In this document: one piece after another, positions 6,730 through 28,862 of the stretch
Numbering within the stretch: the first letter of the stretch is position 1
How the letters are laid out: each line of letters opens with the position of its first letter
Source: an uncultured Roseicyclus sp.
GTDB lineage: Bacteria; Pseudomonadota; Alphaproteobacteria; Rhodobacterales; Rhodobacteraceae
Length of the DNA stretch: 64,000 nucleotides
Assembly (NCBI GenBank): GCA_947491935.1
Contig: CANLLF010000003.1
Coordinates: 62,001-126,000, forward strand
Direction: 5' to 3'
Program-made: the position numbers and the translations under genes
Notes under the pieces: model-generated
Databases searched by the model: none
What the model saw: only the letters and a program-made list of their open reading frames with translations
Told to the model about the DNA's origin: nothing

Positions 6730-6999
6730 ATGCGATCCGAATTCAACAATCTGCGCCTCGGCGCCATCACTCTTGCAGCGTCCTGTGCGCTCCTCGTGAC
6801 TGGCGCAAGCCTTGCCATGGGGCAGGCCGAAAGCGTCGACACCGACGGCGACGGAATGGTCAGCTTCGCAGAGCTGCTCACCCTGATGCCGGCCCTGACG
6901 GAAGAGGAATATCAGGCGCTGGACGCTGACGCGGACGGACTTCTGAGTGCTGACGAAATCGGCGCGGCGGAAGAAGCCGGCCTTATTCCCGCCGGCTAA
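6730..6999 (+). CDS. Small exported EF-hand calcium-binding protein
   Basis: An 89-residue protein with a signal peptide (cleavage expected after SLAMGQA) and two canonical EF-hand loops: DTDGDGMVSFAE and DADADGLLSADE. Each has acidic residues at loop positions 1, 3 and 5 and the Glu at 12. It should bind Ca2+ in the periplasm. The start has GGAGGG nine bases upstream. It is divergent from the ECF sigma gene and ends in a perfect 12-bp hairpin, so it is probably transcribed alone. Confidence 0.85.
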   Translation: MRSEFNNLRLGAITLAASCALLVTGASLAMGQAESVDTDGDGMVSFAELLTLMPALTEEEYQALDADADGLLSADEIGAAEEAGLIPAG

Positions 7000-24467: not shown

Positions 24468-24799
24468 GTATCCCTCCCGCAAGAATTGAACGCTTGTTTA
24501 ATTAACGAGTCTTTCAGCAATGTTTCAAGCTGATTGCAGTGACTGATCCCAAGTTCGTTGGCTTGAGCCTCCCCTAGACTGCGCGTCTTGCCGCGAATCC
24601 GTGTCGATTTGGCTCCCAAACCGCTCCTGAGGTGAAACAGAGGCGGCGATTGTCGCTGTTTTGTTCACAAAACAGGGGTCAATACATGTCCTTTTGGACA
24701 GGTTCGTAGCAAGGGGCTTGTGGCGAAAATGTGGCAGACGCTAATATATAGAGCTTGGAAGTACTTTGTTCGGCGCTTGAGCGCTGTGGGTGGATGATA
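24468..24799. other. Intergenic region upstream of the VPLPA-CTERM gene with two palindromes
   Basis: About 330 bases of relatively low GC with no further gene. Two perfect inverted repeats are present: CTGTTTTG-TTCA-CAAAACAG at 24656-24675 and TGTCC-TTTT-GGACA at 24687-24700. The first could be a hairpin, and the second, 100 bases before the gene, is an operator candidate. I saw no convincing sigma-54 site, although PEP-CTERM genes in some bacteria use one. Confidence 0.5.
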
Positions 24800-25453
24800 A
24801 TGAGACTACTTTTTGCTGCTGCTTTGAGCGTTGGAATAATGGCATCTGGGGCCGTCAATGCTGTTACATTTGGTGTTATCGGTGTCAGTTCGTCCAACAC
24901 GACCGCGACAATCGATTTTTCCTACGACGGTGTGGATACGCTCACGATCGGGATCCTTAACACCGCGTCCAACTCGACAGACCCTCGGATTACGGGCTTC
25001 GCGTTCAATGCGCCGACAATCGTGACCGGCGTTGCCGCATTTTCCGCGAGTGGCACGCAGAACGATGGCGATTGGGGGGCAGACTTCGATCCTGACGGTG
25101 TAAACACGCCGGGATCCAAGGGCTCTTTTGACGTCGGTGGGATCACAGGACCTAGTCTTAACGGAGGCTCCCCAAATTCGGGCATTGCCGTTAACACCAC
25201 CGGCACGTTCACGTTCAAGCTTTTGGGTGACGCGGGCCTGCTGGCCTCCCTGACCGAAAGCAGCTTTCTCGACCTCGTTTCACAAGGGGGTAACAACTCC
25301 TGGCCATTCGCGGTCCGGTTTCAGCGTCTTGACGATGGCAATGTGACGAGCGACGTCGCGTTCGGCGGCCCCACCCCGGTGCCGCTGCCCGCCGCTGGCT
25401 GGATGTTGGTTTTGGGGCTTGGCGGCTTGATCGCTCTGCGTAAGCGCCGCTAG
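24800..25453 (+). CDS. VPLPA-CTERM sorting-domain exported protein
   Basis: Start at the ATG at 24800 (217 residues, GTGGG nine bases upstream); the frame opens earlier at 24755. It has a signal peptide (MRLLFAAALSVGIMASGAVNA), a beta-rich Ser/Thr/Asn/Gly-rich mature part, and a C-terminal tripartite sorting signal: VPLPAAGW, a hydrophobic helix (MLVLGLGGLIAL) and a basic tail RKRR. In the PEP-CTERM/exosortase system this signal is cut and the protein is exported, often to a biofilm matrix. The exosortase is not in this window. Confidence 0.85.
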   Translation: MRLLFAAALSVGIMASGAVNAVTFGVIGVSSSNTTATIDFSYDGVDTLTIGILNTASNSTDPRITGFAFNAPTIVTGVAAFSASGTQNDGDWGADFDPDGVNTPGSKGSFDVGGITGPSLNGGSPNSGIAVNTTGTFTFKLLGDAGLLASLTESSFLDLVSQGGNNSWPFAVRFQRLDDGNVTSDVAFGGPTPVPLPAAGWMLVLGLGGLIALRKRR

Positions 25454-26989: not shown

Positions 26990-27245
26990 GATATCGGCCC
27001 TCCCCGTGGCCCCAGCGTGGTCCGGGGCGGGGGGATTTGGCAAGGGCCGGGACGGTCAGGGGCGAGAATACCGCGCGACCCCGCTGCCATTGGGCAACCG
27101 AGCGGCGGCCTTGCGCGGCTCTCATGGCAAGCTGAACAGCTCCCATGCCGCGGAGCGCGGATGAGCCGAAGGTAGGGTTTCCCGCAGTCGCGCCGCAGCG
27201 CCGGGTGGCGTAAGGTTAGTCCAACATGACCAAGGACCCATCGCC

Positions 27246-27410
27246 ATGCTGATCCGCTCGATCCTAACCATCGCCGTCCTTGGCAGCTTTGTCTTTGGCG
27301 CCGCCGCACAGGCCACCGAACAGCGCCCCGAAAACACCCGGTTTGATGGCGGCCTGACCGCCCAAATCGATGGCGTCGCTCCGCCCGGAACTCCCTGGGC
27401 CAGCCGCTAA
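27246..27410 (+). CDS. Small exported peptide, 54 residues
   Basis: An ATG at 27246 (AAGGA nine bases upstream) opens a 54-codon frame with a classic signal peptide (MLIRSILTIAVLGSFVFGAA) and cleavage near AQA-TEQ. The mature part is about 32 residues, hydrophilic, with a Pro-Gly-Thr-Pro-Trp end and no cysteine. A strong intrinsic terminator follows 30 bases after the stop, so it is an independently transcribed unit. No family recognised; it was missed by length cut-offs. Confidence 0.7.
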   Translation: MLIRSILTIAVLGSFVFGAAAQATEQRPENTRFDGGLTAQIDGVAPPGTPWASR

Positions 27411-27439
27411 CCTTACGACCCTCCCTCCCTGTTGGACTT

Positions 27440-27471
27440 GCCCCCGGACCTCCCTCCGGGGGCTCTTTTTT
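27440..27471 (+). terminator. Strong intrinsic terminator after the 54-residue peptide gene
   Basis: GCCCCCGGA pairs perfectly with TCCGGGGGC over a six-base loop and is followed by TCTTTTTTT. It is among the best terminators in the window. Confidence 0.9.
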
Positions 27472-27612
27472 GCCCGGACAGCCCGCAAACCAACGTGTCC
27501 GGACACGAAATCTGTCCCGTCGGGGCGCGAATGGGCCTATGTTGGAGGCGGTGGCGCGGTCAGCCTGATCTGACCGACCCCGCCCTGCCGTTCGTGAAGA
27601 AGGCCGCATGCC

Positions 27613-28404
27613 ATGTCCAAGAAGACCGAAAGCATCGAAATCCGCGTCTCGCCCGAGTTGAAATCCGCCCTGTCGCGGGTCAGCGATGGCAAGGGGCGCA
27701 CGATGTCCGAAACGGTGCGCGACCTGATCGAAGGGGAAGTGGCGGGGCGGGTTTCACCCCCAACCCCCGGAGATACGATCATGCTCAAAGCCACTTCAGC
27801 CCGCCTTTGGCGCGGCGCCATCATTGCCCTGCCGATCATCGCGCTGGCCTTCGTCTACCTGCTTTCGGCCCAATCCACGGCAACGGCCAGCGCCGAGATC
27901 CGCATTTTCTTTGCCGAGGTCGACGCCGATGGCGACGACCAGATCACAGGCCCGGAAATCGAAGCCTTCGCCGCCGCTGACGGATGGCGCGCGGAGCCGG
28001 ATTGTGCGGCAATGTCCGAACCCTGCACGCTGGCCGCCTTTGCGGCCGAGCAACTCGGCCGCGCCGATTCCGATGGCTCCGGTGCCGTCTCCTACCCGGA
28101 ATTCGAGGCCATCATGTTGCGGGATCGGGCCGAGGAATTCCTCGATGCCGATCTCGACGAGAACGGCATGCTGACCGTCGACGAGATTGTGGGGGCGGAG
28201 CTTTACTGGCTGTCCCAGGATGCGGAGGCGATGGCCGAGGAAGAGCTCACCCTGAGCGCCGCCTGCCTGGCCCAGTTAGAGGCTGAAGCGCTTCCCGGCA
28301 TCGCGGTGACCTGCGGGTTCGAGGCCGCGGGCCGCGCTGAATTGGCGCAATACGATATCGACCGGTCCGGCAGCGTCAGCTTGCTGGAATACCTGAGCCA
28401 CTAG
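27613..28404 (+). CDS. Ribbon-helix-helix / membrane-helix / EF-hand fusion protein
   Basis: A 263-residue protein in three parts. Residues 6-46 look like a ribbon-helix-helix DNA-binding domain (ESIEIRVSPELKSALSRVSD, then RTMSETVRDLIEG). Residues 67-87 form one membrane helix (WRGAIIALPIIALAFVYLLS). Residues 95-263 carry four EF-hand loops with canonical D-x-D-x-[DNS]-G-type ligands at 104-115, 152-163, 180-191 and 248-259, plus four cysteines. The basic side puts the N-terminal domain in the cytoplasm and the EF-hands in the periplasm. An internal ATG at residue 57 with GGAG nine bases upstream could give a shorter product without the DNA-binding part. Function unknown. Confidence 0.8.
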   Translation: MSKKTESIEIRVSPELKSALSRVSDGKGRTMSETVRDLIEGEVAGRVSPPTPGDTIMLKATSARLWRGAIIALPIIALAFVYLLSAQSTATASAEIRIFFAEVDADGDDQITGPEIEAFAAADGWRAEPDCAAMSEPCTLAAFAAEQLGRADSDGSGAVSYPEFEAIMLRDRAEEFLDADLDENGMLTVDEIVGAELYWLSQDAEAMAEEELTLSAACLAQLEAEALPGIAVTCGFEAAGRAELAQYDIDRSGSVSLLEYLSH

Positions 28405-28436
28405 GTCGTAAAACGAGATCGGCCCCCTGGGGCCGG

Positions 28437-28862
28437 TCACTCCTCGGCAACGCGGCGTTTGAGATCGGCGATCCGCGCCTCGGAACAGCCGACCAGGCCC
28501 AGGGCCTCCGCCTCATCGGCCACCACGGCCAAGGCGATATCCCCCACGCCATTCCAACTGCGGTAGGCCATGTTCGCCATTTTTTGGGAGATCGGCGTGG
28601 GCGCGTAGTAGACCAACATCGCTGGCATGACGGGTTGCCCCACCGCGCCGGCCGCGCGCGCCTGAAACGCCATCAGGCGCAGAAAATCCTGCTCCACATC
28701 CGTTACACGGGACAGGTCCAGCAGGTGTTTCTGCCCCGGCGCCGCATCGGGATGGGCCGCGTATTGGGCGAAGACTTCGCCGGTCTCGGCGATGCCCGCC
28801 ACCCCGGAATAGGTGATCACGGCCAGGCCGCGCTTGGGAAAAATCTCGAATGAAAGCGGCAT
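28437..28862 (-). CDS. Hypothetical protein, possible STAS/SpoIIAA-like fold
   Basis: A 141-residue cytoplasmic protein. It begins MPLSFEIFPKRGLAVITYSG and has an alternating strand/helix pattern (VTDVEQDFLRLMAFQARAAG, VMPAMLVYYAPTPISQKMAN, ALAVVADEAEALGLVGC). This resembles the SpoIIAA-like STAS group, which is inferred from the pattern only. It converges with the EF-hand gene, and a small GC hairpin lies between the stops (around 28420-28435). No operon partner. Confidence 0.6.
   Translation of the reverse strand: MPLSFEIFPKRGLAVITYSGVAGIAETGEVFAQYAAHPDAAPGQKHLLDLSRVTDVEQDFLRLMAFQARAAGAVGQPVMPAMLVYYAPTPISQKMANMAYRSWNGVGDIALAVVADEAEALGLVGCSEARIADLKRRVAEE

Follow-up and report, generated by a model that had tools for sequence, protein, structure and literature searches.

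One-component regulators of the ToxR/CadC type carry, in a single polypeptide chain, a cytoplasmic DNA-binding domain, a membrane helix, and a sensor that is exposed outside the cytoplasm. Among ribbon-helix-helix (RHH) proteins, NikR is a soluble, nickel-responsive repressor equipped with an ACT-like nickel domain, while CopG, Arc, AmrZ and MatP are soluble and devoid of EF-hands, Arc and CopG making use of small symmetric operators. EF-hand calcium proteins are also known from the bacterial periplasm, Pseudomonas EfhP and calsymin being two examples. A census of transmembrane one-component regulators recorded over a hundred DNA-binding domains, with the helix-turn-helix leading; the terms 'ribbon', 'RHH' and 'EF-hand' are absent from its main text, and its supplementary domain tables may list RHH cases (PMC10269533). 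In Caulobacter, the Sec-dependent periplasmic EF-hand calcium protein CaBP, of 133 amino acids, is tied to gene regulation and to the sigma factor SigV, and the available part of that report describes no DNA-binding domain for it (PMC13171946). Searches of the open-licence literature for an RHH domain together with EF-hands, calcium binding or membrane-anchored autoregulation, and for the CopG family together with EF-hands, found none.

The locus that is the subject of this work lies within a 64-kb window (the whole stretch of DNA that was analysed), where an open reading frame at 27613-28404 on the plus strand encodes a protein of 263 amino acids. Its product is organized, from the N- to the C-terminus, into a predicted RHH domain (residues 1-46), a linker (about 47-66), a hydrophobic helix (68-86), and an EF-hand domain (about 95-263). 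A first-pass annotation had read this frame as an RHH domain joined to one membrane helix and four EF-hands, and had known of no established family with such a layout. The reading has held up, and the open-licence literature offers no description that names an RHH domain along with EF-hands. The full layout recurs in relatives at 28-65% identity, which exceeds what chance would provide, and the order characteristic of ToxR/CadC-type proteins, namely DNA-binding domain, helix and outside sensor in one chain, is seen in the window protein and in 22 relatives, the membrane side being a prediction. By sequence comparison, therefore, the layout is that of a conserved family kept across genera and orders, and not of a chance fusion. 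In a full-length AlphaFold model (pLDDT 80, pTM 0.58) the linker and helix are poor, with block means of pLDDT of 38-67 over residues 51-90, and the EF part matches calmodulins in a fold search (best E 2.6e-6). We would put at about even the chance that this one gene encodes an autoregulator that is tethered to the membrane and has its EF-hand domain in the periplasm, as a rule accompanied by a short, secreted EF-hand form.

Full-length copies were detected in 6 of the 13 genomes of the genus Roseicyclus. Searches that scored a few top candidates in each genome recovered such copies in 10 of 394 genomes drawn from the bacterial family and 5 of 385 drawn from the class; the genus and class counts include the genome of the window itself. 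The 17 named loci (one truncated) include uncultured Roseicyclus, uncultured Pelagimonas, Cochlodiniinecator piscidefendens, Nitratireductor sp. XY-223, a Pelagibius MAG and a Sneathiellales MAG. When the RHH profile alone was run against the 394 family genomes, 10 of its 12 matches were the RHH-EF fusion, and the remaining two (L116 and L117) were weak matches to different RHH-like proteins. Homologues devoid of the N-terminal part had been named beforehand as a finding that would count against the proposed layout; the full-length homologues keep the RHH part. The loci compared are related, and the family counts given here and below are therefore not independent.

A truncated copy is found at a contig end of the MAG NORP323 (G006), where a single locus bears the labels L074, L008 and L012. 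It retains an exact candidate operator and an open RHH frame, its S32, otherwise invariant, is changed, its frame ends at 82 amino acids, and its EF region is not intact; it may represent decay or an assembly fault. This copy is counted among the 24 operator loci, among the 23 half-site loci and in the synonymous-shuffle test of the internal Shine-Dalgarno (SD) sequence, and is left out of the counts of relatives (22) and of intact proteins (23), as well as of alignments A1 to A4; L060 and L071, being near copies, do not enter A3 and A4.

The putative DNA-binding domain is encoded at 27613-27750 on the plus strand. A Pfam search with the whole window protein gave no RHH match at E values up to 1, and the first 50 residues gave weak matches to TacA1 (0.02), RelB (0.028) and RHH_1 (0.031, below cut-off). 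Across the family, RHH_1 was matched by 11 of 14 members (best 4.3e-5) and the NikA-like profile by 9 of 14 (best 4.2e-7); a profile search of PDB sequences returned nothing significant, the best entry (0.044) being an antitoxin. AlphaFold, supplied with 15 aligned sequences, models residues 1-52 as an extended N-terminus followed by helices at 14-26 and 31-43 (pLDDT 84). A Foldseek search of this model against the PDB gave no match at E 0.001 or better; among the best 50 of 135 matches, with E values of 0.1-1.6 and probabilities mostly of 0.7-0.99, CopASO, Arc, MatP and AmrZ come first and CopG and NikR lower down, all of which we take to be RHH proteins. The strand and two consecutive helices that typify the RHH superfamily are present in the model, together with the family profile matches and the top-ranking PDB folds, and on these grounds residues 1-46 are predicted to fold as an RHH domain, in agreement with the initial assignment. 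Ten residues (K3, K4, T5, E9, R11, P14, E15, K17, S32 and R36) are invariant in all 23 intact proteins, that is, the window protein and 22 relatives, and positions 9 and 11 presumably face the DNA, by analogy to Arc.

Whether this domain is made at all can be judged from its codons, whose dN/dS is 0.02-0.19 in ten pairs and whose dN is the lowest of the three segments in every one of them; the dN/dS itself is not always the lowest, the EF part having lower values in L061/L062 and L061/L006. From these values, the comparison of coding sequences indicates that the RHH domain is translated. It could be argued that, given a good internal ribosome site, only an EF-hand protein starting at the ATG at 27781 is produced and that the RHH reading is an accident of the frame, but the low dN and dN/dS of the RHH codons and the ten invariant residues make this exceedingly improbable. 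Both an accidental fusion and a wrong start were rejected on the conservation of the RHH part and the selection acting upon it. Translation from the internal ATG only, which the first-pass annotation had regarded as fatal to its own proposal, is likewise hard to square with purifying selection on the RHH part and with a relative (L079) that lacks the internal methionine. As a separate observation, in four of five within-genus pairs (L061, L062, L006) the dS of the RHH codons (0.39-0.60; 27613-27750) is much lower than the dS of the EF part (1.26-2.64), and the gap is small in L001/L007 and L064/L065; a low dS over the RHH codons may be a sign of an additional signal in the RNA.

The C-terminal domain matches EF-hand_1 of Pfam at 5.9e-12 and carries four loops on the plus strand, identified by Pfam and a loop pattern: DADGDDQITGPE (residues 104-115; 27922-27957), DSDGSGAVSYPE (residues 152-163; 28066-28101), DLDENGMLTVDE (residues 180-191; 28150-28185) and DIDRSGSVSLLE (residues 248-259; 28354-28389). 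Each comprises 12 residues with D at position 1, D or N at 3, D, N or S at 5, and E at 12, so that the four EF-hands with complete ligand sets claimed at the outset are indeed there. One loop pattern recovers all four 12-residue loops in 22 of the 23 family proteins and three of the four in L080; position 1 is D in every loop of all 23 proteins, and position 12 is E throughout, save for a D in loop 1 of L080. The NCBIfam models for XopAW and lanmodulin show EF similarity over residues 84-195 (E 7.4e-8) and 77-192 (E 9.3e-7), respectively, and neither assignment was retained, the scores being 32.5 bits against a cut-off of 120 for XopAW and 29 bits against 135 for the lanmodulin equivalog; the proline at loop position 2, which we take to be the hallmark of lanmodulin, is absent from the window protein. 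Elsewhere in the window, a small, exported-looking protein of 89 amino acids with two EF-hand-like loops (6730-6999, plus strand) represents an EF-only relative.

Between the two domains, a hydrophobic stretch at residues 68-86 (27814-27870, plus strand) corresponds to the single membrane-type helix that had been placed at 67-87. Its mean hydropathy is 2.4, as measured in L060, where the residues are identical, and the relatives carry one to four K/R within the preceding 15 residues and one or two within the 15 that follow. Either a type II signal anchor or a cleavable signal peptide would fit this helix; the folded RHH domain in front would make an anchor the more likely for the long form, and the short one would be well served by a plain signal peptide. 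Cysteines following the helix number two or four in 22 of 23 proteins (none in L080), an even number that suits disulfides outside the cytoplasm, and these sequence features support a periplasmic location for the EF-hand domain. Directly behind the helix, AxA sites ending at residues 92 and 94 (in ...TASA, followed by EIR; 27883-27894, plus strand) conform to what we take to be the signal-peptidase-I motif, and the loose pattern [AVSTG]xA, for which there is no chance control, occurs after the helix in all 22 relatives examined. These sites leave room for cleavage of the full-length protein, which may release the EF-hand domain and, if so, would break a one-piece sensor. A helix with signal-peptidase-like sites directly between both domains, together with the single self-operator described below, would also suit an export monitor, in which the RHH domain senses not calcium but the translocation, folding or cutting of the EF domain and tunes synthesis to export capacity. 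The conservation of D1 in all loops of the 23 proteins, and of E12 in all but one loop of L080, points instead to a metal role, and we consider an export monitor improbable.

The gene is flanked by opposite-strand genes, with a GCS2 ligase on one side and, on the other, an aldehyde dehydrogenase and a gene whose weak STAS match stays below cut-off. Just upstream, on the plus strand, an open reading frame for 54 amino acids (27246-27410) has a signal-peptide-like start (MLIRSILTIAVLGSFVFGAAAQA...) and no Pfam match at E 0.01, and a strong terminator-like hairpin comes after it at 27440-27463; to judge by eye, other genomes of the genus have a similar hairpin ahead of the gene. At a greater distance, a protein encoded at 24755-25453 (plus strand) ends in VPLPAAGWMLVLGLGGLIALRKRR, presumably a PEP/VPLPA-CTERM sorting signal, and likewise has no Pfam match at E 0.01. 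In a comparison of 13 loci, neighbours are common to L060-L065; among the matches listed, L066 has one open reading frame in common with L063-L065, at about 34% identity, and L067-L076 have no neighbours in common with the rest except antisense readings of the gene and a weak L073-L065 match. An operon partner was rejected, neighbours being hardly common between L060-L065 and L066-L076 in these 13 loci and the matches listed. A type II toxin-antitoxin pair was also set aside, as no toxin-like gene is adjacent in the window (GCS2, the weak STAS match, Aldedh and the 54-residue frame), and so was a mobile origin, since 72,556 plasmid and 50,697 phage records contained no match.

The region upstream of the gene contains a candidate operator, TGTCCGGACACGAA, which consists of the palindrome TGTCCGGACA plus CGAA (27496-27509, plus strand). 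Of 24 family loci (window and truncated copy included), 23 have the pattern TGTCNNGACACGAA in their upstream region with no more than two mismatches, the 24 regions comprising 17 with an exact match, five with one mismatch, one with two and one with three. For the 23 loci, none of 100 shuffles each and no control window from the same locus did as well; the remaining locus, L079, has three mismatches, no better than its controls, and the palindrome TGTCCGGACA is still present there. The centre is CCGG in most loci and CATG in L022 and L080, which carry TGTCATGACACGAA, a version altered on both sides of the centre with the palindrome preserved; the site of L007 is an imperfect palindrome, GTTCGGACACGAA. 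A second half-site, GGGCGCGAA (27523-27531, plus strand), with two mismatches to GGACACGAA, follows 22 bp after the first, and a GGACACGAA-like half-site (at most two mismatches) is found at exactly this spacing in 13 of 23 loci and at 21 bp in a further locus; of 586 control windows, only 17 contain at least two half-sites of this kind. On the minus strand of the window, the palindrome is also scored as a weak terminator-like hairpin, and no standard sigma-70 promoter was found in 27200-28500.

The exact 14-mer occurs at 16 sites in 15 of the 394 family genomes. Seven of these sites lie 99-164 bases before the gene start (first base to ATG), and the nine others, one of which is a second site in the window's genome, have no RHH-EF gene within 700 bases; the exact site is thus present at the gene in 7 of 10 gene-bearing genomes, versus anywhere in 8 of 384 others. 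With up to one mismatch, eight gene-bearing genomes (the seven that carry the exact site, plus G010) yielded 14 sites, of which eight lie at the gene and six in other places, and the reversed control yielded 10 matches. Neither the exact search of the 394 family genomes nor the one-mismatch search of the eight chosen genomes revealed copies above chance outside the gene, and a wider output of the regulator is accordingly not seen. When EF-only and RHH-EF loci were put through one test, 0 or 1 mismatch was found at 0 of 52 EF-only loci versus 14 of 16 RHH-EF loci; two mismatches were found at 7 of the 52, anywhere in roughly 2-3.5 kb. The bare 10-mer TGTCCGGACA is present in 11 of 13 genus genomes, no more frequently than its reversed control, and is therefore uninformative by itself; its literature occurrences, among the matches listed, are in eukaryotic contexts, p53 above all. 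The palindrome is the probable self-operator of the RHH protein, and the simplest reading of these counts is that the protein would bind this candidate site and little else. Alternatively, the palindrome could be the site of another regulator, with the RHH domain serving as an antitoxin-like or dimerization module: RHH domains are common in antitoxins, TacA1, RelB and FitA-like profiles are among the weak matches, and the RHH domain is a putative binder of the palindrome. The exact site, however, tracks the gene in the proportions given above, and no toxin-like gene stands beside the RHH-EF gene in the window; we accord this alternative little likelihood.

A second start within the frame, at the ATG of residue 57 with GGAG upstream, had been suggested by the first-pass annotation and is plausible, the ATG being present at 27781 and the GGAG at 27769-27772 (plus strand). 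The probable short product (27781-28404, plus strand), deduced from sequence comparison, would possess a signal-peptide-like N-terminus and the EF-hand domain. In most relatives, a methionine at residue 57 directly precedes the helix, and an SD-like core lies ahead of it in 20 of 22; the exceptions are L079, without the internal methionine, and L080, with the methionine and without the SD, both of which keep the fusion. Glycine codons located two to five places before the internal methionine are GGA in 19 of 20 cases versus 23 of 339 at other positions of these genes, and in L062 and L076, which have no glycine there, GGAG or AGGA is built from other residues; this bias and these cores point to selection on the RNA. 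Furthermore, an SD core of four or more precedes 24 of 26 internal methionines versus 55 of 137 other methionines, and the duplex energies of the two groups differ (Mann-Whitney p 5e-5). Synonymous shuffling of the internal SD gave fractions of 0.056-0.758 in 22 loci, none below 0.05. As the shuffle is not significant by locus, the internal SD rests on the comparison with other methionines and on the GGA codon count, by which an internal start is supported. Since L079 lacks the methionine and L080 the SD, only the long form would be expected in all relatives, and the short form seems to be usual.

The existence of such a start evokes the idea of a fused operon that operates without transmembrane signalling, where a cleavable signal peptide delivers a secreted EF calcium buffer that stems for the most part from the internal start, and the RHH domain is a built-in autorepressor of the same message. 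The AxA-like sites of all 22 relatives, the internal SD plus ATG of 20 of the 22, and a self-operator with no visible regulon are all in keeping with it. Yet the RHH frame continues into the EF frame with no stop in 23 of 23 intact proteins, L079 and L080 keep the fusion without the internal start signal, and a separate autorepressor frame, to be expected in some genomes, has no close representative among the 394 examined, which contain only the weak L116 and L117. A fused operon of this kind thus appears unlikely, albeit well worth consideration.

Conservation of the fusion, of the EF loops and of the promoter site is evident across the aligned loci, and we infer from the whole a scheme of site binding, repression, metal control and a role for the short form. 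In the membrane-tethered autoregulator that we favour, the cytoplasmic RHH domain would bind, as tandem dimers, to TGTCCGGACACGAA and to the second half-site 22 bp further on, in its own promoter, which it would most likely repress, and the helix would bring the domain with four EF-hands and disulfides into the periplasm. Once the EF domain is loaded with metal, calcium being the likely one, the dimer state or the stability of the protein would change and, with it, repression. In most relatives, the second start before the helix would generate a shorter form with a signal-peptide N-terminus and the EF domain but no RHH domain, which could act as a periplasmic calcium binder, as a diluter of regulator dimers, or as both. 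L080, with one canonical loop missing and no cysteines beyond the helix, speaks against the autoregulator. The one-component calcium sensor-regulator originally proposed is upheld in its architecture, namely predicted fold, fusion, helix and EF-hands, to which a candidate operator can be added; its other half, an effect of calcium on DNA binding, is a deduction, and the AxA sites allow for cleavage. That these proteins form an alphaproteobacterial class of membrane-spanning RHH-EF calcium repressors, each acting on its own gene only through one palindrome, with the secreted EF form from the internal start closing the loop, is a tentative proposal, possible and yet one that we would sooner doubt than expect to hold.

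If the scheme is correct, it would describe a very small calcium-responsive regulator that fits the sensor, the passage through the membrane, the DNA-binding domain, the operator and perhaps a second product into about 0.9 kb, with implications for the sensing of external calcium by bacteria in the absence of a two-component system; the RHH-EF family supplies a concrete candidate DNA site and a set of proteins to test. With CopG, Arc, AmrZ and MatP, the protein shares the predicted fold of its RHH part. NikR (PDB match 2hza, rank 28 among the best 50 of 135 Foldseek matches) resembles it in joining an RHH and a metal-binding domain in one chain, and differs in that the RHH-EF protein has a membrane helix and EF-hands. 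The ToxR/CadC-type regulators likewise combine, in one chain, a DNA-binding domain in the cytoplasm, a membrane helix and a sensor on the outside, whereas the RHH-EF protein employs an RHH domain and outside EF-hands, and would thus be a regulator built from RHH instead of the usual helix-turn-helix. The nearest case found is that of Caulobacter CaBP-SigV, where, according to the available part of the report, a periplasmic EF-hand protein is linked to regulation (PMC13171946).
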